IMG/VR virus record: IMGVR_UViG_3300023116_003818
Coordinates: 1-28,850 of that record
Reading direction: 5' to 3' (one strand)
Source: a virus
DNA length: 28,850 nt
Part shown: positions 5,183 through 28,850 of the stretch, one piece after another
How positions within the stretch are numbered: position 1 is the first letter of the stretch
Layout of the letters: the number at the start of each line of letters is the position of its first letter
Notes under the pieces: model-generated
Database searches by the model: none
The model's input: only the letters and a program-made list of their open reading frames with translations
What the model was told of the DNA's origin: nothing
Position numbers and translations under genes: made by a program

Positions 5183-5874
5183 AGCTTCTTGATCCTAAAA
5201 GATACATTACAACTCACTTACATGACAGAGATACTTATGCTACTATGGTGCACGAGTTTTTCAATCTCGACACGTACGGTTGGTGGTATCAAGTAAAGCC
5301 AGGTGATATTGTAATGGATATTGGTTCTTGCATTGGAATGTTTACTTGTAAAGCACTCGAACAGGGTGCTAAACATGTTTATTCAGTAGAACCAAACATT
5401 AAACTTCTTCACACTACTATGGTCAATGCTATGCCTGCTATCTCAAGATCGGCAGAGCAAAGAGTAACTCCTATTAATGCCTTCATCGGCCACTCAGATC
5501 ACGGGTTTGGTGTTAAAGGAGATGAAGCACCACATAAATCATTTAAAGAGATTATAGAAGAATACGAAATAGATCATCTTGATTTCTTAAAAGTTGATTG
5601 TGAAGGTGGTGAGTATGATATCTTTATGAAAGAAAACTATGACTTCTTATTCAATAAGGTACATCATATTGCTATGGAAGTACATCTTGACGTATATCCC
5701 GAAGCGCCCGAACGATTTATCAAGATGAGAGATAAATTTATACGAAGATGGCCAGGCCATATTCGGTTTTTAAAGTTAGAACATAGAAAGAAAACATGGG
5801 ACGACAACTACATAAGAGGAGACTGGCCAATAGGCTGGGGAAGCTCTTGGATGATCTATCTAACACGCATTTAA
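5179..5874 (+). CDS. FkbM-family methyltransferase
   Basis: This is a 231 aa SAM-dependent methyltransferase. Motif I is VMDIGSCIGMFTCKALEQG with the acidic end of strand 2 in YSVEPN. The FkbM hallmark LDFLKVDCEGGEYDIF is clear, and a later AMEVHLDVYP segment fits the family. FkbM proteins O-methylate sugars or small molecules, but the substrate here cannot be read from sequence. The ATG at 5179 overlaps the previous stop (ATGA); an upstream in-frame TTG at 5167 is less likely. It sits between gene 46 and gene 43, an accessory insertion in the replication core. Confidence 0.85.
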   Translation: MKLLDPKRYITTHLHDRDTYATMVHEFFNLDTYGWWYQVKPGDIVMDIGSCIGMFTCKALEQGAKHVYSVEPNIKLLHTTMVNAMPAISRSAEQRVTPINAFIGHSDHGFGVKGDEAPHKSFKEIIEEYEIDHLDFLKVDCEGGEYDIFMKENYDFLFNKVHHIAMEVHLDVYPEAPERFIKMRDKFIRRWPGHIRFLKLEHRKKTWDDNYIRGDWPIGWGSSWMIYLTRI

Positions 5875-5877
5875 TGG

Positions 5878-5906
5878 TTTACAAAATGAACATTATGTGT
5901 TATAAT
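5878..5906 (+). promoter_or_regulatory. Sigma70-type promoter for DNA polymerase
   Basis: TTTACA (5878-5883) and a perfect TATAAT (5901-5906) are spaced by 17 bp. They lie in the 60-nt gap just upstream of the polymerase gene. Confidence 0.75.
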
Positions 5907-5934
5907 GTAAAATATATGATACAAACAGGTGAAC

Positions 5935-8466
5935 ATGTCTAAATTCTATACATCAGTCGAACGCTTTATCAACGACATTCTAGTTCGTGGTTATGAAAAC
6001 GGCAGACCATTCCAACGCAAAGTCAAATTCAAGCCAACATTATATGTTCGTGCTCGTGATAACGCCACTCACAAATCATTGATTGGTGATGTGCCTCTCG
6101 GTGCTACTCGTTTCAATAGCATGATCGAAGCTCGTGATTTCATTACTCAATACAAAGATGTACATGGTTTCGATATCTGTGGCACTATGAATTACGTCAC
6201 TCAATTTATTCAAGAAGAATATCCTGGCGAGATCAATTTTGACATGTCTAAGATCAACATCTGTTCTTTTGACATCGAGGTTGATATCTCGAATGGATAT
6301 GCAGACATCAATACCGCTGACAAAGAAATCACTTCGATTGCATACAAATCTTCTAAGTCTAGTACATATCATCTTCTCGGTCGTAAAGATTTCGATAAGA
6401 CAAAAACAATTACAGGTATCAATCCAGACGATATATCGTTTATGAAGTTTGATACCGAGGTGGCACTGCTTGAAAGATTTATTCAGATCTGGCAGATGGA
6501 ATATCCCGAAGTTGTTACAGGTTGGAACGTCGAGTACTTCGACATCCAATATATTGTCACTCGAATCATTCGACTTATGGGTGAAGAAAAGGCTAAGAAG
6601 CTTTCGCCTTGGGGTCGTATCTCACCACACTCAATCACCAAATTTGGTAAAGAACAGAAATCATATATCATATCTGGCCTGACCATCATTGACTATATGG
6701 ATGCTTTCAAGAAGTTTGGTTACAAGTACGGTCCACAGGAATCTTATAAACTCGATCATATCGCCCATGTAGTACTCGGCGAGAAGAAATTGGACTACTC
6801 TGAATATGGAAATCTTAACGCACTTTATGAACAAAATCCTCAGTTATATCTTGATTATAACCTTAAGGATACTCAGCTCATTCAAAGAATGGAAGACGAA
6901 TCTGGACTTCTTTCGCTTGTACTTACTGTTGCTTATGGCGGTGGGGTTAACTTCAGCGATGCATTTGGTACAGTAGGAATTTGGGAAACAACAATATATC
7001 GCCGTTTGATGAAAGACAAAATTGTTCCACATCTTAAAGGTGGACCCGGCGAGCGAGCTGGTGAACTTGTCGGTGGTTATGTTAAAGATCCAAAAGTCGG
7101 CATGCATCCTTGGGTTGTATCGTTTGATTTGAACTCTCTGTATCCACACCTGATGCTACAATATAATCTATCTCCTGAAACTTATGTCGAAGGCGAACGT
7201 GAATATGTATCTCAAGAAATGGTACTCGACGGCTCATATCAAAACAAAACTGATTATGCAGTATGCGCAAACGGTGCATGTTTCCGTAAAGACAAACTCG
7301 GCATCATTCCTGAGATCATTGATGAATATTATAATCGTCGTTCTGGTATCAAGAAAGAAATGCTTGCAGTAGAACAAGCTATTGAGAATGAAACCGATCC
7401 TGCTAAGAAACGGCAACTTCAATCTCAACAAACACAGCTTCATAACAACCAGATGGCTATAAAAATTGCTATGAACTCTCTTTATGGCGCAACTGCTAAT
7501 ATCTACTTCCTCTACTATATTAACGATATGGCTGAAGCTATTACGACATCCGGTCAGCTTTCAATTCGTTATGCTCAAAAGTCCGTGAACGAGTATCTTA
7601 ACAAGATTCTCAAGACTGACGGTAAAGACTATATCATCTATATCGATACAGACAGTATCTATGTTGATTTTGGTCCTCTTGTTAAAGCTTCATTTGGTAC
7701 TGTTGACATCGATCGTAAGAAAGGTGAAGAATTCCTCGATAAGATCTGTAAGATGAAGATCGAGGAAGTAATCGAAAATGGTTATAAAGATCTTGCTTCG
7801 AAAATGGGTGCATATCGTCAAGCTATGGTAATGAAACGTGAAAAGATTACTGATAAGTCAGTATTCATTGCTAAGAAGCGTTACATCATGAATACTCTCA
7901 ACTCAGAAGGTGTTCATTATGAAACTCCAAAAATCTCTGTAACCGGCCTTGAATCTGTAAGATCATCAACACCGGAAGTCTGCCGTGATAAACTCAAAGA
8001 ATCGTTCAAGGTTATCATGAATGAAGGCGAAGAAGCAATCCAGCAATTCATTGCTCAATTCAAATCTGAGTTCTTTAATCTTCCACCAGAAGATGTTGGT
8101 CGTAACTCAGGTACTGATAACATCGAGAAGTATACAGTTCGTGGTACTTACAAGAAAGGTTGCCCAATGCATGTTCGTGGTTGCATCCTCTACAATAAGT
8201 ATCTCAAAGAAAATGGCCTGTCGAATCGTTATGAATCGATTACGTCAGGTGATAAGATTAAATTTGTATATCTCAAAGTACCGAATCCAATCAAAGAAAA
8301 TATCATATCGTTCCCAGCGGTTCTACCTAATGAATTCAATCTCAAACCGTATGTGGATTATGAAACTCAATTCAATAAAGTCTTCCTCAGTCCTCTTGAG
8401 TCTATTCTTGAAGCTCTCGGATGGTCTGCTGAGAAGACAAACACAATAGAGGATTTTTTCGCATGA
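5935..8466 (+). CDS. 43: Family B replicative DNA polymerase gp43
   Basis: This 843 aa B-family polymerase with 3'-5' exonuclease is slightly shorter than T4 gp43 (898 aa). The N-terminal [11 protein letters not shown] segment resembles T4. The exonuclease motifs are SFDIEVD (Asp113, Glu115), [13 protein letters not shown] and YNLKDTQLI. Polymerase motif A is SFDLNSLYP (Asp398), motif B is [10 protein letters not shown], and motif C is [10 protein letters not shown] (Asp571, Asp573). A KKRYIM motif follows. All catalytic carboxylates are present. The ATG at 5935 was preferred over a GTG two codons earlier because AGGTG lies at good distance. The next gene overlaps the stop by ATGA. Confidence 0.97.
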
Positions 8467-11620: not shown

Positions 11621-11655
11621 CATTTTTGTCAAGTAAAAAAATTTTACAGAAGGGG

Positions 11656-11684
11656 TTGACATTTAACTCCTTTTGTGTTATATA
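11656..11684 (+). promoter_or_regulatory. Sigma70-type promoter for the tmRNA gene
   Basis: TTGACA (11656-11661), 17 bp and TATATA (11679-11684). The predicted transcription start near 11691 coincides with the first part of the tmRNA acceptor piece. Confidence 0.8.
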
Positions 11685-11690
11685 TAAGAA

Positions 11691-11752
11691 GTGGACGTTG
11701 AAACAAAATAAAAACGGATCGGACCGCGGGGCAGTACCGCGCACCTCCACCA
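11691..11752 (+). ncRNA. ssrA: tmRNA acceptor piece (3' half, circularly permuted gene)
   Basis: This segment ends CACCTCC-A-CCA (11742-11752). CACCTCC pairs along all 7 bp with GGGGGTG at 11920-11926, with a G-U pair at the third position, the alanyl-tRNA synthetase identity element. Directly before it is a 5-bp T-stem, CGCGG/CCGCG (11725-11729 with 11737-11741), closing a 7-nt loop GGCAGTA that differs from the usual TTCRANY. The 3' half lies upstream of the 5' half, so the gene is circularly permuted as in alphaproteobacterial two-piece tmRNA. The 5' end is estimated from the promoter. Confidence 0.88.
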
Positions 11753-11770
11753 TAAACACATGAGGATATA

Positions 11771-11902
11771 ATGAATTGGGATTGGCACTGGATTAGTTGG
11801 TTTAAAGGAACACCTTTTCAATGGGGTGATTTTAGATTCAATAGTGGCAAGCCATATAAAAGTTATAGACTTGGACCATTACTTATTCGTGTGTTTATGT
11901 AA
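11771..11902 (+). CDS. 43-aa ORF in the tmRNA intervening segment
   Basis: An ATG with a GAGG ribosome site 5-6 nt upstream opens 43 codons within the spacer that joins the two tmRNA halves. The product begins MNWDWHWISWFKGTPFQWGD and is rich in Trp, Phe and Tyr, with a basic C-terminal half. If translated, the ORF would be read from the tmRNA precursor before processing. Small size makes chance possible, but the ribosome site and lack of stops argue for a gene. Confidence 0.5.
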   Translation: MNWDWHWISWFKGTPFQWGDFRFNSGKPYKSYRLGPLLIRVFM

Positions 11903-11919
11903 GCACATGTGTTTATGAT

Positions 11920-12090
11920 GGGGGTGAACAAGGATCGACGGACGGAATAGTTGAGTGGAGTTCACCGTGTTGACCTACGTTATTCGGTCAAACAAACTAA
12001 ATGCAAACGATAACTTTGCACCATCTGGTTACGCACTAGCTGCATAACACAGGGGGCTGGCCACTTGCCTAGCAACAGAAAAGTGGCACA
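11920..12090 (+). ncRNA. ssrA: tmRNA coding piece with proteolysis tag
   Basis: It starts GGGGGTG (acceptor-stem strand) and continues with GGATCGACGG, close to the conserved GGATTCGACGG of tmRNA. A 6-bp TTGACC/GGTCAA helix (11970-11975 with 11986-11991) fits the region of pseudoknot 1. The resume codon GCA is at 12003, and the tag frame runs to TAA at 12045-12047, giving ANDNFAPSGYALAA. The ALAA end is the classical ClpXP/ClpAP signal. Downstream, GCCACTT/AAGTGGC (12060-12066 with 12081-12087) forms a 3' helix. The RNA rescues stalled ribosomes and tags their products. The 3' end is approximate, and I could not resolve the helix joining the two pieces by eye. Confidence 0.9.
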
Positions 12091-12126
12091 TAACACATTT
12101 AATAAAAGTAATAAGAAAGGGACAGG

Positions 12127-12906
12127 ATGTTTAATAAACTACTAATTACAACAGCATTGGTCTGCGCAGCAGGCTCAGCAATGGCCGCAGACGTTGGCGG
12201 TGAAATTACAACTGAGATTGCAGAAAACGCAGCAGGCAACTGGGGTGCAACAACATCCTTCGACCTAGGTATCGCATCAATGGGTACAGCAGTACCTGCA
12301 TTTGCTGCTATTGATTTGGACATGAACACAGACGGTGATATTACCCTTGATGAATGGCAAATTGGTACAGTAGTAAATGGAGATGCAATGATCTCATTCG
12401 GAGATCAAGGTAATGTTTGGATCGATTCAGAAGACGGTTCAACATTGGCAGATCCAGCCATGAAAGAATCTATTGCAGTTAAAGCCCTTGGAGCAAAAAT
12501 GGGTATTAGCTGGAAAGATATCGAAGCGGATGTAACAGAAATCGAAACAGTAGCCGGTATGTACGAAATGAATCTTGGTCTTGTTAATCTACAAGCCGCA
12601 GGTTCATACAACATGGTTACTGAAAACTTTGCGATTGGTTCTCGCAGTGATTATCTGTTGAACGACAATATTGGTCTTGGTGCTGCAATCACTTATGATT
12701 CAGGATCAGAAGATATTGGTTTTGAAGTAGATGCTGGCGCTTACGGTGCTACAGTATTCGTAAACGGCGATCAGGATGAAATGCTTCAAAACGTAGGTGG
12801 TTCTTACACTTACGGCTTCATCGGGCTTGAGCTCGAAGCAGGAGCGTCATACAACCTAGACAGCGAAGAATTGACACCTACTGCATCTGTTTCGTTCAGC
12901 TTCTAA
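12127..12906 (+). CDS. Exported outer-membrane beta-barrel (porin-like) protein
   Basis: This 259 aa protein has a clear signal peptide (MFNKLLITTALVCAAGSAMA, predicted cleavage after residue 20). The mature part alternates polar and hydrophobic residues in many short strands and ends in ASVSFSF; a C-terminal Phe is the outer-membrane insertion signal. It resembles small alphaproteobacterial porin-like barrels. Residues 65-76 match the EF-hand loop pattern (DMNTDGDITLDE) and may bind Ca2+. It follows the tmRNA without an obvious promoter of its own and ends at a strong hairpin. Possible roles are surface change, superinfection exclusion or nutrient entry; none is shown. Confidence 0.75.
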   Translation: MFNKLLITTALVCAAGSAMAADVGGEITTEIAENAAGNWGATTSFDLGIASMGTAVPAFAAIDLDMNTDGDITLDEWQIGTVVNGDAMISFGDQGNVWIDSEDGSTLADPAMKESIAVKALGAKMGISWKDIEADVTEIETVAGMYEMNLGLVNLQAAGSYNMVTENFAIGSRSDYLLNDNIGLGAAITYDSGSEDIGFEVDAGAYGATVFVNGDQDEMLQNVGGSYTYGFIGLELEAGASYNLDSEELTPTASVSFSF

Positions 12907-21057: not shown

Positions 21058-21245
21058 GTTACATTGTAAAACAATACGCAGAGAGATCTTATAGAATCTA
21101 CGACACATCAAAGGATGAGTACATCAACATAGATCTGTCTCGCCATCGAGCAAATCAAATTGCAAGAAAAATGAATCTAGGTTCAGGGTTCGACGGGTTT
21201 ATTCCAGACTTCTTCAATAAGGAATACGTCATTCCTTATAAATAA
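21054..21245 (+). CDS. Small hypothetical protein after gene 41
   Basis: This 63 aa basic protein (starts MSYIVKQYAERSYRIYD) overlaps the helicase stop by ATGA. Its last codons TAT-AAA-TAA also form a late promoter. No recognised domain. Confidence 0.7.
   Translation: MSYIVKQYAERSYRIYDTSKDEYINIDLSRHRANQIARKMNLGSGFDGFIPDFFNKEYVIPYK
21237..21244 (+). promoter_or_regulatory. Late promoter built into a Tyr-Lys-stop end
   Basis: Exact TATAAATA formed by the last sense codons and stop of the previous gene, 28 nt before the next ATG. Confidence 0.75.
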
Positions 21246-21272: not shown

Positions 21273-22061
21273 ATGAAATCCTTTAAGAGTTTTATTGGTG
21301 AAGAGCTGGAGCTATTGCTTATGTCTGCAAGATCTGATAAATACGAAGCCGATGTAGCAGACTATATTAATAGCATGAACGGTGTCACCGCATCTCGTCC
21401 TAAAGTTAGCACAAAATATGCAGACGTAAAAACAGAATTCAATCGTAAGAAAACATGGATTGAAGTCAAGATGAATCATACAGACAATCTTGGCAATACT
21501 CGTGTTTCTTATATTGATGGTAAGTGGACTGCAGCAGCACCACTTGATCCTGTTAAACAGTTTGCTATAGAGTATCTTTCTAAAGATCGCCAGACGCAAC
21601 AATTCCTTAAAGACGTTGCAGAATTTGCCGGTGTTAAGAACTGGAAAGATATGACCGTTCCTTCTACTCAAGGTCCTTTGAAAAATAAGAATGCTGTTTC
21701 ATATGAAAAGATGAAAGAGTATATGAGTAAAAGAACACAGTATATTCTTGACGTTAAGAATGTAGATCTAGGTGAGCTTGTTACTCGTCACTATCTAGAA
21801 GGTAAAGCAGAGCCTGCACACTATATGCAAGCGGGTGATGACTTCTATATGATCGGTAAAAAGAATCCTCTTGGCCTACCAGTTGATATTCCGGAGCTAG
21901 GTAGAAAAGGTCAGTGCATGGGTTCATTTAGAATGCGTATTGGTATTCGTGGTAGCAAACCTTATTACGAAATTCAACCTGAAATAAAAATCAATAATAT
22001 GCCAACATCGGCGTATTCAATCAAACCAGGAACTCGTAAGAAGAATCCATTCGCGGTGTAA
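21273..22061 (+). CDS. PD-(D/E)XK nuclease-like protein with capsid-targeting N-terminus
   Basis: This 262 aa protein begins MKSFKSFIGE, close to the T4 capsid-targeting sequence MKTYQEFIAE, which the gp21 protease removes after Glu. A nuclease-like pattern follows: Glu25 in YEADVADYIN, Asp51 in YADVKTEF and IEVK (Glu64, Lys66), fitting a D-x(12)-E-x-K core. The rest has no motif I recognise. A late promoter lies just upstream. The reading is a late-made enzyme packed with the DNA and injected; this is inference, and the nuclease call rests on a short motif. Confidence 0.6.
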   Translation: MKSFKSFIGEELELLLMSARSDKYEADVADYINSMNGVTASRPKVSTKYADVKTEFNRKKTWIEVKMNHTDNLGNTRVSYIDGKWTAAAPLDPVKQFAIEYLSKDRQTQQFLKDVAEFAGVKNWKDMTVPSTQGPLKNKNAVSYEKMKEYMSKRTQYILDVKNVDLGELVTRHYLEGKAEPAHYMQAGDDFYMIGKKNPLGLPVDIPELGRKGQCMGSFRMRIGIRGSKPYYEIQPEIKINNMPTSAYSIKPGTRKKNPFAV

Positions 22062-22062
22062 T

Positions 22063-23292
22063 ATGCTTAGATTTAAACAATATCTTTCCGAATCAAAAAA
22101 CGTCCACATGGAACACCTCGAAGATTCTATCTTGAATCTCGGTGTTGATGGTACTCGTACTGCTATTAACTTTCTAAGAGCATTGAGAGATATGCTCGAT
22201 GGTACATCAGCAAAGGCTGTTAATGTAACAGTAAAGTGGGATGGTGCTCCTGCTGTATTTGCCGGTAAAGATCCAAGCGATGGTAAATTCTTCGTCGCTA
22301 AGAAAGGTATTTTTAATAAGAATCCAAAGGTCTATAAGACCAATGCTGATATTGACGCCGATACAAAAGGCGACTTAAATGTGAAGTTGAAACTGGCCCT
22401 TGCTGAACTACCAAAGCTCGGTATAGAGGGTGTAGTACAGGGTGATTTTCTATATGCGAAAGAAGATATTAAAGAAACTACAATTGATGGAGAGCCGTAT
22501 ATTACTTTTCATCCTAACACGATTGTTTACGCGGTACCTAAAAACTCGGACCTCGCAAAACAGATTCTCGGATCCAAGATCGGAGTGGTCTGGCATACTA
22601 CATACCGAGGATCAAGCTTTGAAGAAATGTCTGCAAGTTTTGGAGAGGAGATTGCATCTGGCCTCAATCAAACAAAATCGGTCTGGTCGGTAGATGCAGT
22701 CTATAAAGATGTTTCCGGTACTGCAACATTTACCAAGAAAGAAAGTGCAGAAGTAACTAAACTACTATCTGCTGCTGGTAAGAAATTCAATACAATTAAA
22801 GCGCCAACACTTAATGGTATCGCTAAGAATGAAGATACCTTAATTAAAATCAAAACCTTTGTCAATAGTAAAGTAAGAGCCGGTGAAAGAATCAGAGATC
22901 CAAAAAGATTTGCTAAGGATCTGGTTCAATACATCGATGACTATTACGAGAAGCAGGCTGCGGGTCGTAAGACTGAAAAAGGTAAAGCCGGACAAAGAGC
23001 CAAGAAAGACGCAACACTAGAGTACTTTAATAGAACGCCAGAGTCTCAGATTGTTGCAGTATTCGAATTATATAATCTACTTATCGACGCAAAACATTTA
23101 ATCATTCGTAAACTAGATAAAGCAAAGCGTATCGGTACATTTTTGAAAACTGCTGATGGATATGAAGTAACAGAGCAAGAAGGTTTTGTTGCAATCGATC
23201 ATACGGGTAAAAACTCTGTTAAGCTTGTTGATCGTCTTGAGTTTAGTAATGCTAACTTCTCAGACAAATATATCAAAGGGTGGCAGAAATAA
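22063..23292 (+). CDS. Ligase-like nucleotidyltransferase with capsid-targeting N-terminus (DUF6267-like)
   Basis: This 409 aa protein begins MLRFKQYLSE, again like a capsid-targeting sequence. The covalent nucleotidyltransferase motifs of DNA/RNA ligases can be traced: motif I KWDG (Lys58-Gly61), a motif III-like QGDF near 126, motif IV EGFVA at 373-377 and a motif V-like VKLVDR near 386. The insert between III and IV is long. I associate this arrangement with the phage family DUF6267. It begins 1 nt after the nuclease-like stop and overlaps the next gene by TAATG. Nucleic-acid ligation is the likely chemistry; the substrate is not known. Confidence 0.65.
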   Translation: MLRFKQYLSESKNVHMEHLEDSILNLGVDGTRTAINFLRALRDMLDGTSAKAVNVTVKWDGAPAVFAGKDPSDGKFFVAKKGIFNKNPKVYKTNADIDADTKGDLNVKLKLALAELPKLGIEGVVQGDFLYAKEDIKETTIDGEPYITFHPNTIVYAVPKNSDLAKQILGSKIGVVWHTTYRGSSFEEMSASFGEEIASGLNQTKSVWSVDAVYKDVSGTATFTKKESAEVTKLLSAAGKKFNTIKAPTLNGIAKNEDTLIKIKTFVNSKVRAGERIRDPKRFAKDLVQYIDDYYEKQAAGRKTEKGKAGQRAKKDATLEYFNRTPESQIVAVFELYNLLIDAKHLIIRKLDKAKRIGTFLKTADGYEVTEQEGFVAIDHTGKNSVKLVDRLEFSNANFSDKYIKGWQK

Positions 23293-24294: not shown

Positions 24295-24942
24295 ATGTAC
24301 ATACCTAAATTTAATTCTTATTTCATTCATATACCTAAGTGTGGTGGTTCTTCTATAGAGCAATACTTCTTTAATCTAGATGGACTATATCCTAATATGG
24401 AAAACGTATTTGGATCTCTTGGTAGGGAAGTAGGAAGTAAGTATCATTTTGGTAATTATGTACGTGGACTTCAACATTCAGAAACTCAGCATCTGAGTGT
24501 ATGGGATTGCAGAAGATATCAAGTAAACGATTTTTTAAACTCAAATTATAAGTTTGCTTTTGTAAGAAATCCTTGGCATCGATTTGTATCCGAGGTTCAT
24601 TGGAAAAGAAAGCATTTGCGCATGACAAATCACTCATTCCAGGATCAAATAGAAATGCAAAAGCGTTTCGCCGATAATAACCTAAGCAACAATCTTAGGC
24701 CTCACAACACTCCCCAATGGAAATTTGTATTCAATGAAGAAGGTAAGCTTGCCGTTGATGACGTATTCAAATTAGAAGAAATAGATAAAGCTGAAAAGAG
24801 ACTATCAGAGGTATTCGGGGTAGAAGTAAAATTTCCGCATGTAAATAAAACAGAAAAGAAAAATTACGAAATCGATCAAGGAATAAAAAATCAACTTCTT
24901 CCTTTGATCAAAACAGATTTGGAGGTATTCGGATATGAATAA
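24295..24942 (+). CDS. Sulfotransferase-family protein
   Basis: This 215 aa protein has the two PAPS-binding signatures: the 5'-phosphosulfate loop FIHIPKCGGSS at 10-20 and the 3'-phosphate segment FVRNPWHRFVSEV starting at Phe89. Such enzymes move sulfate from PAPS to sugars or other acceptors. It is the first gene of a three-gene block with two glycosyltransferases (8 nt overlap), suggesting modification of a glycan. The target, host surface or virion, is unknown. Confidence 0.85.
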   Translation: MYIPKFNSYFIHIPKCGGSSIEQYFFNLDGLYPNMENVFGSLGREVGSKYHFGNYVRGLQHSETQHLSVWDCRRYQVNDFLNSNYKFAFVRNPWHRFVSEVHWKRKHLRMTNHSFQDQIEMQKRFADNNLSNNLRPHNTPQWKFVFNEEGKLAVDDVFKLEEIDKAEKRLSEVFGVEVKFPHVNKTEKKNYEIDQGIKNQLLPLIKTDLEVFGYE

Positions 24943-25636
24943 AACTATCTGGATGTACTGGCACGACGGGTTTGAAAACTCACCAGCAATTACTCAAGAA
25001 TGTTTAAAGAGTTGGAAGAAATGGAATCCTGATTATGAAGTGGTTGAATTGAATAATGAAAATTTAAAAGATTATATTGATTATCCAATTGCTCAGCCAA
25101 AATCGCTAGCAGCAAGATCTGATATTATAAGAATTAATTTACTTAAAGAGCACGGTGGTATCTGGTCAGATGCTACCGTTTTATGTAATAGGCCGTTGAA
25201 GGAATGGGTGCATATGTATGATAAACAAGGATTCTGGGCCTTCTCAGATCCTACACCAGCCAATATGATATGCAGTTGGTTTCTCGTAGGTGATAAAGAT
25301 AACCATATAGTTAAAACCTTCTGTGATGAAGTCAATAAATATTGGGACAACGGTAGACAAAAGCCAGATGTGTATCTTTGGTTTCATGGTATATTCGATC
25401 ATCTATTTCATGTTGATCCGATATTTAAAGATCAATGGGTACTAGCTTCTAAGTATAAAGCTAACTGGCAGCCAATGGCAAAGGATGGAACAAATCCACA
25501 TTACTTTGCACCTTATATAAAGGAAAGATTAGATCAACTACCATTTAAAGACATGACGGCTCCTCTTTACAAATTAACAAGAGGCCAGTCTAATATGTTA
25601 ATGAACAACAAACTGATAAAGGGATTATTGATATGA
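24935..25636 (+). CDS. Capsular-polysaccharide-type glycosyltransferase
   Basis: This 233 aa protein begins with an IWMYWHDGFENSP segment. The catalytic region is ARSDIIRINLLKEHGGIWSDAT (Gly74 onward, Asp79), the capsular polysaccharide synthesis/GT32-like pattern in which the WSDAT acidic residue binds metal-nucleotide sugar. It overlaps both neighbours by a few bases. Substrate unknown. Confidence 0.8.
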   Translation: MNKTIWMYWHDGFENSPAITQECLKSWKKWNPDYEVVELNNENLKDYIDYPIAQPKSLAARSDIIRINLLKEHGGIWSDATVLCNRPLKEWVHMYDKQGFWAFSDPTPANMICSWFLVGDKDNHIVKTFCDEVNKYWDNGRQKPDVYLWFHGIFDHLFHVDPIFKDQWVLASKYKANWQPMAKDGTNPHYFAPYIKERLDQLPFKDMTAPLYKLTRGQSNMLMNNKLIKGLLI

Positions 25637-26355
25637 AGGTTGAAAAGACCTATATTGTGAGAATTGACACCGAGATGTCAAAACGTTACGCAGCAGATAC
25701 TGCAAAGTCGTGTGACAATCTCGGTATTGAATGGGAATATTATGATGGCTATAACGTAAGAACTGGCCAGCAAGAAATCTATCAATGGCAAAACTTTGCA
25801 GAGACTGCAGGAGTTAGAGTTGAAAAAGTAAAACGCATGCAGCCAGGCGCTGCCGGTTGCACTATGAGCCATCTTGCTTTGTGGAAAAAGATTGCTGATA
25901 ATCATGAATGTGCTGTAATCTTAGAACATGATGCTATAATGCTTCATCCATTGACATTGGATATTCCAGATGGTAAGATTATCCATATGGGTTATAAGTA
26001 TCCAGACTATGAAAAATATAATGCGAAGGTAGCTGGTCCTCCCAAACGTATTGTTGATATGGCGTTTGCTCCTGGTTCTCATGCCTATGCACTTACTTGG
26101 AGAACTGCTCAGAAACTCGTACAAGATTGTGAGAGGGAAGGTATTACAGAAGCAATTGATAATCGACACTTTATGCATACAAGAGCAAACTATACAAAGG
26201 TTCCTATTGCTATGACTGATCCAATTTGTGCTATGGGATGGTTAAGAGATTCTACTATCTGGGGTAGAAGTGCAATTCATAACAACACTGGTCAAATGTT
26301 AGAATCATTCAAGACCAACTTTGCGGCATCGGTAATGCCTCATGATTATAAATAG
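25633..26355 (+). CDS. Glycosyltransferase family 25-like protein
   Basis: This 240 aa protein has the GT25/LPS-type signatures GCTMSHLALWKKI (from Gly75) and AVILEHDA (Glu98-Asp100), then PGSHAYALTWRTAQKLV. GT25 enzymes transfer galactose or related sugars in LPS and glycan synthesis. The last codons TAT-AAA-TAG form a late promoter for the next gene. Confidence 0.82.
   Translation: MKVEKTYIVRIDTEMSKRYAADTAKSCDNLGIEWEYYDGYNVRTGQQEIYQWQNFAETAGVRVEKVKRMQPGAAGCTMSHLALWKKIADNHECAVILEHDAIMLHPLTLDIPDGKIIHMGYKYPDYEKYNAKVAGPPKRIVDMAFAPGSHAYALTWRTAQKLVQDCEREGITEAIDNRHFMHTRANYTKVPIAMTDPICAMGWLRDSTIWGRSAIHNNTGQMLESFKTNFAASVMPHDYK
26347..26354 (+). promoter_or_regulatory. Late promoter built into the GT25 stop
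   Basis: Exact TATAAATA across the Tyr-Lys-stop codons, 34 nt upstream of the long final ORF. Confidence 0.75.
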
Positions 26356-26387: not shown

Positions 26388-28850
26388 ATGTCTGACAAGG
26401 CAAAAGATAAAAAGAAAAAGGTGAAAGGCTTTAAGGAATTTGATCCTGGCCAATACATCGACGTAGAACCAAGACTAGATGAAGCAAAGAAAGGCACTGC
26501 AGTATTTGCATGGGGTCGTATGAATCCTATGACTGCAGGTCACGAGAAACTGGTGCAGAAAGTAATCTCAGTTGCTCGTTCAGAAAAAGGCATGCCTCAT
26601 ATCTTTCTAACACATTCATTTGATAAAAAGAAGAATCCTCTTGCTTATGGCGACAAGATTAGATTTGCTCAGAAAGCATTCGGTCCTATTGTAAAAAAAT
26701 CAGATGCTAAAACAATCTTTCAACTTATGAAGCAACTTGAAAGAAACTTCAATAGAGTTGTATTGATTGCTGGATCAGATAGAGTAAAAGAGTTCGAGTC
26801 TGTCTTAAGCAAATACAACGGCAAAGAATATAATTTCGATGAGATTAAAGTAGTCTCAGCCGGCGCTAGAGATCCAGATGCAGACGACGTCTCAGGTATC
26901 TCAGGTACTAAAATGCGTGAATATGCGGCATCAGATATGAAAAAATTTCAATCCAATTTACCAGCTAAACTCAAAGGCGACGCAGAAGAGATTGCAAAAG
27001 CCGTTAGAAAAGGTATGAACATGTCAGAAGATAACGAATCATTTGAAGGCGAACAACTAGACGAAATCCTAAATCGTCAACAACGCCGTAAGCGTGCATT
27101 GCTCATGAAACGCATGAAACATAAAATCAAGCGTGGACAAGAGAAAGCAAAGCATAGAACTGCTACTATGGAGACTCTGAAGAAGAGAGCACGTAAACAA
27201 GCTATTATGAATCTAAAGCAAAGATTCTCAAAGAATAGAAGATTCGCTGAGTTATCAGCTGGCGAAAAAGAAGTAATCGAAAAGCGCATTTCAAAGATCT
27301 CAAAGAAAAGAATTGAGATGATGGCTCGTAAACTTCTACCTAAGGTAAAACAAAATGAAAGAGATCGTCGTAAGGCTATGGTTAAAAAAGAGGATGTCGA
27401 TCTAAACTCTCGTTTTGAAACATTCATGGAAGATTATTATAAAGGTGTTCCAAAGGATAAGAAAGACGACCGCGAAGCGCACTTTAAAAAGTATGCTGAG
27501 AAGCCAGGTGACAAAGGAGCGGACAAAGATTCTAACTATAAGGATGCACCGGGCGACATTGGTAAAGATGGCGAAAGAGTAAAAACAAAAGTTTCTAAGC
27601 ATACTAAAAAATATCAACAAATGTATGGTGAAGATCTAAACGAGTGGGTATGTGGTGTATGTCATGCCGAGCCATGCATGTGTGAAGGTGATGGCTCAGA
27701 GCCATTGCATGAAATGTGGGGATCATATGTAACTAAACGTCCTCATATGTTAATGGATAAGAATGGTAAAGTTAAGTTCGACAAACGCTTTAAGATGTAT
27801 AAACAAAAGCCAGACCTTACAGAAGAGTTGGTAAATCTAGTTGAATCTACAGAAGATTTTGCTCTTGAGCTTAATGAAGATCCTACAGCATCATTGAAGA
27901 AAAAAGCTGAGAAGACAGGAATGCCAATGGATGTTCTTCGTCAAGTTTACAACCGTGGTGTAGCAGCTTGGAAATCGGGCCATCGTCCTGGTACAACTCC
28001 AGAGCAATGGGGACATGCTCGTGTAAACTCATTTGTAACTAAGTCATCTGGTACATGGGGCAAGGCTGACTCTGACTTAGCAGCTAAGGTTCGTGGTTCT
28101 AAGAAAGAAGAAGTAGAACAAGTTGATGAAGTACTAGATACTCCAAAGGCAATGGATAGTTATAGAAATAAAGCAAAGGCCAGCAAAGATAGAGCAACTA
28201 ATTCTGCAGTTGCAAATATTCTACGCAAAGGCGATCATTCATCAGATCTAAAAACAATGTCTAAGCGTGAAAAAGGTTTGAAGATGGCTGATCGTAACGC
28301 TACTAAGAAAACATTTAAAGCTTTACGTGGTGCTAAGACAGAAGATTTTGATTCAGAACATGCTCATCATTCTCAAGGATTGAAAGATGCTCATGCAGAT
28401 ATGTCTCGTGCAAGAACACATGACGATATGATTAAAGCTATGAATAAGAAAGCTCGCCATGAAAGAGCTTTAAGCAAAATGAATCGCATGAAAGAAGAAG
28501 TAGAACTAGATGAAGCCGAAATGAGCCTATATGATAAAATAAAGGCAGCAAGAGCAAACCCATCACCAGACAAGCCTGCAAGAGGTCGTGGATCAAAAAA
28601 TCGTAATCCAAAAACTTATGACCCACGCAAAGCACTAGATAAAGAAGATGATCGTATTCAAGCTTTGGCGAAGAAAAAGTTGAGAAAAGAAGAAGTTGAA
28701 CTAGACGAATCAACTTCTGTAGAACAAATTGATGAGAAGGCACCAAAAATTGGTGTTGATAGCGTAGCACAACAACGTAAGATGGATGCTGCCCATGCAA
28801 AAGCTATGGGACGCTCAGTAAGAACGGGTCGTAAGCTTCCAAAGAAATCA
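26388..28850 (+). CDS. Nucleotidylyltransferase fused to long Lys-rich protein with repeated LxE sites (partial)
   Basis: The frame is open for 821 codons to the window edge, so the C-terminus is missing. After a basic leader with FKEF and PRLDE (Glu32) comes a HIGH-superfamily adenylyl/cytidylyltransferase-like domain: GRMNPMTAGH at 43-52 and ISGTKMR at 171-177. Then follows a very Lys/Arg-rich helical region. A CGVC...CMC zinc-binding-like cluster lies at 422-432, and several less basic modules come after it. Nine [LIV]-x-E sites lie at Glu32, 226, 419, 442, 497, 581, 709, 774 and 783, two within EEVELDE repeats. A late promoter drives it. It is probably a head-associated protein cut by the prohead protease; function of the modules is unknown. 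Confidence 0.8.
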   Translation, partial: MSDKAKDKKKKVKGFKEFDPGQYIDVEPRLDEAKKGTAVFAWGRMNPMTAGHEKLVQKVISVARSEKGMPHIFLTHSFDKKKNPLAYGDKIRFAQKAFGPIVKKSDAKTIFQLMKQLERNFNRVVLIAGSDRVKEFESVLSKYNGKEYNFDEIKVVSAGARDPDADDVSGISGTKMREYAASDMKKFQSNLPAKLKGDAEEIAKAVRKGMNMSEDNESFEGEQLDEILNRQQRRKRALLMKRMKHKIKRGQEKAKHRTATMETLKKRARKQAIMNLKQRFSKNRRFAELSAGEKEVIEKRISKISKKRIEMMARKLLPKVKQNERDRRKAMVKKEDVDLNSRFETFMEDYYKGVPKDKKDDREAHFKKYAEKPGDKGADKDSNYKDAPGDIGKDGERVKTKVSKHTKKYQQMYGEDLNEWVCGVCHAEPCMCEGDGSEPLHEMWGSYVTKRPHMLMDKNGKVKFDKRFKMYKQKPDLTEELVNLVESTEDFALELNEDPTASLKKKAEKTGMPMDVLRQVYNRGVAAWKSGHRPGTTPEQWGHARVNSFVTKSSGTWGKADSDLAAKVRGSKKEEVEQVDEVLDTPKAMDSYRNKAKASKDRATNSAVANILRKGDHSSDLKTMSKREKGLKMADRNATKKTFKALRGAKTEDFDSEHAHHSQGLKDAHADMSRARTHDDMIKAMNKKARHERALSKMNRMKEEVELDEAEMSLYDKIKAARANPSPDKPARGRGSKNRNPKTYDPRKALDKEDDRIQALAKKKLRKEEVELDESTSVEQIDEKAPKIGVDSVAQQRKMDAAHAKAMGRSVRTGRKLPKKS

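Follow-up and report, generated by a model that had tools for sequence, protein, structure and literature searches.

In bacteriophage T4, the internal proteins IPI, IPII and IPIII and the head-packaged ADP-ribosyltransferase Alt carry a capsid targeting sequence that is cleaved by gp21. This protease cleaves after L/I-x-E, and in IPIII head targeting is conferred by the first ten residues, residues 4 and 7 serving targeting and residues 8 and 10 processing, according to the available text of PMC9026906. In phage SPN3US, 13 of 14 prohead-protease sites are described as sites of N-terminal propeptide removal only (accessible part of PMC10052503), and among cyanophages the product of T4-GC190 was detected by mass spectrometry in purified virions of S-SM1 (accessible part of PMC3037559).

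The window analysed here, 28,850 bases long, is an entire IMG/VR virus contig, in which the protein P0001 is encoded by the open reading frame 26388-28850 (plus strand). The initial annotation of this DNA had claimed at least 821 open codons, which was borne out: the frame is stop-free up to the window end, and its 3' end, beyond the window, is supplied by locus L002 (IMG/VR 3300017969_002044), which is identical across the overlap and yields a full-length protein of 913 aa (821 of 913 codons within the window). The versions in the relatives L004 and L005 comprise 843 aa (98%). P0001 was matched in PHROGs by phrog_3041 (cytidyltransferase, E 2.9e-82); the Pfam search at E 0.1 returned DUF5824 (PF19141, E 3.5e-16 at residues 500-556) and, weakly, CTP_transf_like as its only matches, with no polyvalent-type domain such as ART-PolyVal, and the NCBIfam search returned no family matching P0001. 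Relatives were found in 526 of 50,697 phage records, chiefly Synechococcus phages, none of the 526 at a query coverage of at least 80%. Neither residues 595 to 821 nor the basic module described below, each searched alone, gave a match among named phage records, and the module comparisons were therefore moved to IMG/VR loci (prefixed L). The phage encoding P0001 is a marine T4-like virus infecting bacteria. The window also holds a tmRNA gene (11652-12138, plus strand) matching the Rfam permuted and alphaproteobacterial tmRNA models, with the tag ANDNFAPSGYALAA; such a phage-borne permuted tmRNA hints at an alphaproteobacterial host.

P0001 is built of modules, all given here in plus-strand coordinates. 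A leader of residues 1-32, GFKEF...PRLDE↓A (26388-26483; the arrow marks the site boundary), resembles the T4 IPI leader and is followed by a HIGH-superfamily nucleotidylyltransferase with a PPAT/NMNAT fold (residues 33-226, 26484-27065, ending QLDE). The HIGH-type assignment had been made beforehand and was upheld by the sequences TAGH (residues 49-52) and ISGTKMR (171-177), which represent the superfamily motifs TxGH and ISxTxxR, and by the match of the model computed for P0001 with AlphaFold2 (mean pLDDT 69.6, 35 rows) to PPAT/NMNAT structures, the best being 3pxu (Z 13.8, 152 residues, rmsd 2.9). Next come a basic helical module (residues 227-342, 27066-27413) with 42 K+R and 12 D+E per 116 aa, which is a separate gene in L024, L035, L041 and L068; a linker or module (343-419, 27414-27644, ending DLNE) with a similar stretch in HTVC008M and L007; and a four-cysteine knuckle, CGVCHAEPCMC (420-442, 27645-27713, ending PLHE), whose counterpart CGQCNCDPCTC lies at a different place in the L157 protein. 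These are followed by a module ending ELNE (443-497, 27714-27878), the DUF5824 module (PF19141; 498-581, 27879-28130, ending QVDE), the boundary site of which is conserved, and two modules ending EEVELDE, one missing from HTVC008M (582-709, 28131-28514) and one mostly missing from L004/L005 (710-774, 28515-28709). The QIDE site (Glu783) and the start of a C-terminal module, running to residue 913 in L002, occupy 28710-28850. At the C-terminal end of the 913-aa L002 protein a motif GT[DE][KE]L..(x)Y.[KR].TP was observed, which also occurs in L018, L103, L110 and L009. Common to otherwise dissimilar cargo proteins, it was present in 26 of the 472 segments classed as cargo-like, compared with 3 of 5,096 others, lay at most 20 residues from the C-terminus in 18 of the 26, and might act as a further signal for targeting or assembly.

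Nine [LIV]xE sites had been counted in P0001. All nine glutamates are at the residues given for them, but 13 such sites are really present in the 821 aa, Glu135, 298, 479 and 486 having been omitted; the two sites placed in EEVELDE are as described, and a third lies in EEVEQVDE. Enrichment was measured against 4,000 shuffles. [LI]xE occurred 10 times at both lengths, against expectations of 5.5 for 821 aa (P=0.047) and 6.4 for 913 aa (P=0.10), [LIV]xE was not clearly enriched at either length (P=0.10 in 821 aa, P=0.08 in 913 aa), and the reversed E-x-[LIV] was itself enriched (23 versus 10.5 in 913 aa). An enrichment of plain [LI]xE thus did not clearly emerge, and that of the form [LIV][DN]E alone did: the 913 aa hold 8 copies where chance would give 1.24 (P at most 2.5e-4), and 0 of 1,000 shuffles in a separate run reached that number, the reverse of this form not being enriched (2 versus 1.25, P=0.36, 913 aa). 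When 45 proteins with a length of 150 aa or more (the sister contig's proteins, full-length P0001 and gene B of L004, described below) were ranked by this enrichment, P0001 headed the list, followed by gene B, and the protein in third place had P=0.17. Since the count of plain [LI]xE falls short of significance over the full 913 aa, the case was not rested on it. In the AlphaFold2 model, 6 of the 9 sites fall within stretches of pLDDT<50 and 8 of the 9 in or at most 3 residues from such a stretch (P=0.006 versus all Glu), with Glu709 inside a predicted helix. Two further readings, the sites as pure chance and EEVELDE as simple repeats devoid of boundary meaning, were considered and dropped.

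A strict leader motif, M..[FY]..[FYW][LIVF].E, was scanned for at the start codons of six sequences. It was matched twice in T4, by IPII and IPIII only, once in S-SM1, by the cytidyltransferase SSM1_190 (annotated T4-LIKE GC 190, T4-GC190), once in the relative G003, by a DUF6267 protein, and twice each in the window and the 58 kb sister contig G001, by a 262-aa protein and DUF6267; HTVC008M gave no match. The P0001 leader fails this motif (aromatic residues at 4 and 7, aliphatic at 8, Glu at 10) and is instead alike to that of T4 IPI, MKTFKEF...STITE↓A. A long IPI-type pattern (aromatic-x-x-aromatic, spacer, [LI]xE↓small residue), devised after both leaders were known, was matched only by P0001 in the window, only by IPI among 438 ORFs of T4, once in S-SM1 (589 ORFs) and not at all in HTVC008M (334). 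At the leader join, relatives carry TIDE↓A, TLNE↓M, TITE↓A and KLEE↓A, P3 and P1 being conserved in most and P2 variable; L103 is an exception with SLDD, but VKE↓A comes next. Across 70 relative loci, duplicates removed, a relaxed leader was present in 48 of 109 family proteins versus 29 of 710 other ORFs, some of the latter 29 being island neighbours. In a blind DNA scan for MKxFxxFLxEA, counted among the 80 loci listed, 49 matches belonged to the nucleotidyltransferase family, 8 were short or truncated starts matching that family, 1 was DUF6267 and 22 were other. Concerning the processing machinery, the gp23 proteins of S-SM1 and HTVC008M retain ILTE/FLGE near the T4 cut position, and G003 encodes a gp21-type protease (E 4.4e-82; 60% identity to that of HTVC008M). 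The sister contigs G001 and G002, both fragments, gave no match to a gp21-type protease, and no head genes were recognised in them.

The octamer TATAAATA, the T4 late-promoter consensus, lies at 26347-26354 (plus strand) and ends 33 nt before the P0001 start codon; it is present in L004 and L002 too. Its five occurrences in the window (9386, 12967, 17250, 21237 and 26347) are all on the plus strand, as are the 69 in relatives, with 0 on the other strand. The placement makes the earlier description of P0001 as a late protein plausible, but the octamer does not set cargo genes apart from others (11 of 126, compared with 34 of 605; P=0.22, six near-duplicate loci having been removed beforehand).

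Leader-type signals were also found in the genes just upstream and downstream of P0001, where they had been overlooked. The 262-aa gene (21273-22061, plus strand), with TATAAATA at 21237-21244, begins with the T4-type leader MKSFKSFIGE↓E, and its product matched no known family in Pfam, PHROGs or NCBIfam; a KTWIEVK stretch in this protein could be a nuclease motif. The DUF6267 gene (22063-23292, plus strand) begins with the leader MLRFKQYLSE↓S, which corresponds to the disordered residues 1-13 of an otherwise confident model (pLDDT 92). Its best 50 structural matches were all RNA/DNA ligases (top Z 8.9, 186 residues, rmsd 3.7), and residues of the ligase motifs KxDG and EGxV and the distal Lys are invariant in 27-29 sequences (K58, D60, E373-G374, V376 and K387); Foldseek returned nothing at E<=0.001. 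By the VIA-align matches and the invariant residues, DUF6267 is predicted to be an RNA/DNA-ligase-like nucleotidyltransferase of that superfamily. Between the cargo genes, the stretch 24295-26355 (plus strand) contains genes with Pfam matches to Sulfotransferase, Caps_synth and Glyco_transf_25, which probably form a surface-sugar accessory cassette. In L004, four genes follow the P0001 homologue (5672-8268, plus strand), three with a T4-type leader and the fourth (DUF6321) with a similar start. The last of the four, gene B, is leader-bearing and encodes 485 aa with four sites of the EEVELDE type: two copies of EEVELDE↓A, one of EEVELNE↓A and one of EEQLDE↓I. Leader-bearing genes of relatives gave weak Pfam matches to HAD_SAK_2 (RNA repair), ART-PolyVal and Peptidase_M78 (E 0.007), and the kinase module found in relatives matches Zeta_toxin. 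Two individual cases were noted: L009 5274-5822, with a weak ART-PolyVal match (E 0.045) that recalls T4 Alt, and L060 1544-2161, with a weak HAD-like match (E 0.015), both leader-bearing. On these sequence matches, the leader-bearing gene set suggests a putative injected kit for RNA/DNA repair or counter-defence.

A comparison of site positions in homologues, proposed with the original claim, found the module-edge sites conserved: [LI]xE is kept at the propeptide and module ends, some sites having Val at P3. The modules themselves occur elsewhere as separate genes, which had likewise been overlooked. Separate genes encode the nucleotidyltransferase, a DUF5824 protein and the basic module in L024, L035, L041, L068 and L069, and kinase, basic helical and DUF5824 modules elsewhere are separate genes with a T4-type capsid-targeting leader ending [LI]xE. 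For DUF5824 (80 loci, 64 distinct, one open-ended row set aside), an [LIV]xE ending 22-27 residues before a Tyr that is conserved was present in 36 of 40 fusions and in 20 of 23 proteins encoded separately, whereas windows of the same size at other places in the fused ORFs gave 7.8%; the sites before this module persist despite linker divergence (VELDE, SIDE, DLNE, VITE). The kinase module (68 distinct) has a boundary site at the same place in 40 of 47 fusions and in 20 of 21 proteins encoded separately, although the Glu-Gly ahead of it may be a structural rather than a cleavage feature. For the basic module, 13 of 13 fused proteins carry [LIV]xE at the join and so keep the hydrophobic P3, compared with 19 of the 34 whose N-terminus is short (P=0.004); Glu-Ala-Leu, perhaps the beginning of a helix, is retained by most of these 34. 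Gains and losses of sequence were also seen at sites. The HTVC008M protein terminates at VRGS, where P0001 continues into KKEEVEQVDE, most of the stretch between the two EEVELDE sites is missing from L004/L005, and in L003 EIEE replaces ELDE at Glu774, preserving [LI]xE. A stretch of L157 is 70% identical to residues 26-157 of gene B and includes a unit, flanked by IIE↓A and VELDE↓T, that matches the gene B unit between two VELDE↓A sites. In a comparison of BLAST HSP break points from 238 representatives, which are not independent of one another, 370 of 1,074 (0.345) lay at sites versus 0.227 at random and 899 of 2,499 (0.360) versus 0.213, an enrichment of about 1.5-1.7-fold.

We therefore favour the reading, on balance probable, that P0001 is head cargo whose leader is removed and whose modules are probably separated by a gp21-type prohead protease. 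The protein would be synthesised late, and its GFKEF...RLDE↓A leader, as a long-form T4 capsid targeting sequence, would bring it into the prohead core. The protease would trim the leader after Glu32 and would probably cut at [LIV]xE between modules, so freeing the nucleotidylyltransferase, the basic helical, the DUF5824 and other peptides, and the released parts would be ejected along with the DNA. P0001 would thus be one member of a cargo-gene island, preceded by the 262-aa and DUF6267 genes and, in sister contigs, followed by four others. As it carries T4-type loading and cutting signals, P0001 probably delivers several enzymes and DNA/RNA-handling parts to the host at the start of infection. 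Head targeting with removal of the leader is the likely part of this reading, and separation at the internal sites is only slightly favoured. The prohead-protease interpretation in the initial annotation is partly supported, its leader, enzyme, basic part and modules fitting the comparative evidence and its "nine sites" being statistically overstated; the observation behind it is, as a whole, partly confirmed.

The main rival reading, for which we would allow a clearly smaller share of the probability, is that only the leader is cut, that the internal [LIV]xE are relics of gene fusion (old leaders) or flexible linkers, and that the modules are ejected as a single chain. Some fusions indeed keep an entire former leader, including the Met in L108 (...MKSFSEYNETLDE↓D), and that of L143 retains ...VSFKSYINE↓N; the HSP break points are just about 1.5-1.7-fold enriched for sites, and separation of mature domains would be unusual, because nearly all SPN3US sites are N-terminal propeptide sites (accessible part of PMC10052503). 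This reading is opposed by sites that persist before DUF5824 while the linkers diverge, by the retention of the hydrophobic P3 of the basic module in every fused protein and its absence from many with a short N-terminus, and by the repetition of EEVELDE sites in both gene B and P0001. A cytoplasmic multidomain enzyme, in which EEVELDE would be a linker or binding motif and the likeness of the leader coincidental, is improbable: the near-chance frequency of plain [LI]xE, the failure of P0001 to match the strict leader motif and the replication genes adjoining its gene speak for it, but a homologue was found in virions of a different phage, S-SM1 (accessible part of PMC3037559), the leader motif is specific and recurs on neighbouring genes, and the sites are located at module edges. 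Very improbable, in our estimate, is an unprocessed polyvalent-type effector injected whole and acting as a single protein. P0001 is multidomain and probably virion-borne, the weak ART-PolyVal (E 0.045) and Peptidase_M78 (E 0.007) matches belong to leader-bearing genes of relatives, and packaged polyvalent proteins, some unprocessed, are described in the available text of PMC5512222; P0001 itself lacks a polyvalent-type Pfam domain, and its modules match separate leader-bearing genes of relatives.

Beyond P0001 as processed head cargo, we put forward a tentative proposal: that marine T4-like phages, including cyanophages, may load into their heads nucleic-acid end-processing enzymes, which would be injected before expression begins to repair RNA/DNA damage inflicted by host defences and would be encoded either by individual genes with a leader each or in fused form, the chains then being split by the protease. 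Equally speculative is the membership of this set, which might comprise the ligase-like DUF6267, the PPAT/NMNAT-fold nucleotidylyltransferase, the zeta-toxin-type P-loop kinase and the HAD-like and nuclease-like proteins. If the favoured reading is true, a cyanophage core gene known only as a "cytidyltransferase" would acquire a head-cargo role, being injected with the DNA, as would the DUF6267 and DUF5824 domains; the reach of the T4 capsid-targeting system would widen to include ocean viruses that are abundant, with the polyprotein format predicted here, and a ten-residue leader would make the injected cargo of marine T4-like phages predictable. Among the open papers searched, capsid-targeting sequences together with cyanophages led only to a T4 review in which cyanophages appear in a reference title, and DUF6267 and DUF5824 were not mentioned. 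Head cargo of this kind is already known; judged by those papers, what looks new is the island of cargo genes in marine phages, together with the predicted polyprotein format.

Close counterparts of P0001 include the T4 internal proteins. The aromatic residues at 4 and 7, the aliphatic residue at 8 and Glu at 10 recur in the neighbours and homologues of P0001, and the [LI]xE site and the T4-type late promoter octamer upstream are shared. In contrast, the enzymes and modules of P0001-type cargo are not among IPI, IPII, IPIII and Alt, several sites are predicted per marine protein, and the P0001 leader is IPI-like yet longer. SSM1_190, the cyanophage core cytidyltransferase T4-GC190, belongs to the same nucleotidyltransferase family as the P0001 enzyme and adjoins DUF6267, but has 387 aa and one leader, whereas P0001 has 913 aa with extra modules. 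The prohead-protease substrates of the giant phages phiKZ, SPN3US and 201phi2-1 are likewise ejected head proteins cut after Glu at a short motif, some at several sites; the motif in phiKZ and SPN3US is S/A-x-E or A-x-E rather than the [LIV]xE of P0001, and SPN3US cuts mostly trim propeptides, whereas the P0001 sites are predicted to separate modules. Polyvalent proteins, as presented in the available text of Iyer et al. 2017 (PMC5512222), are also multi-domain chains of mosaic architecture thought to be injected, but P0001 carries no such Pfam domain, and its modules exist as separate leader-bearing genes as well.
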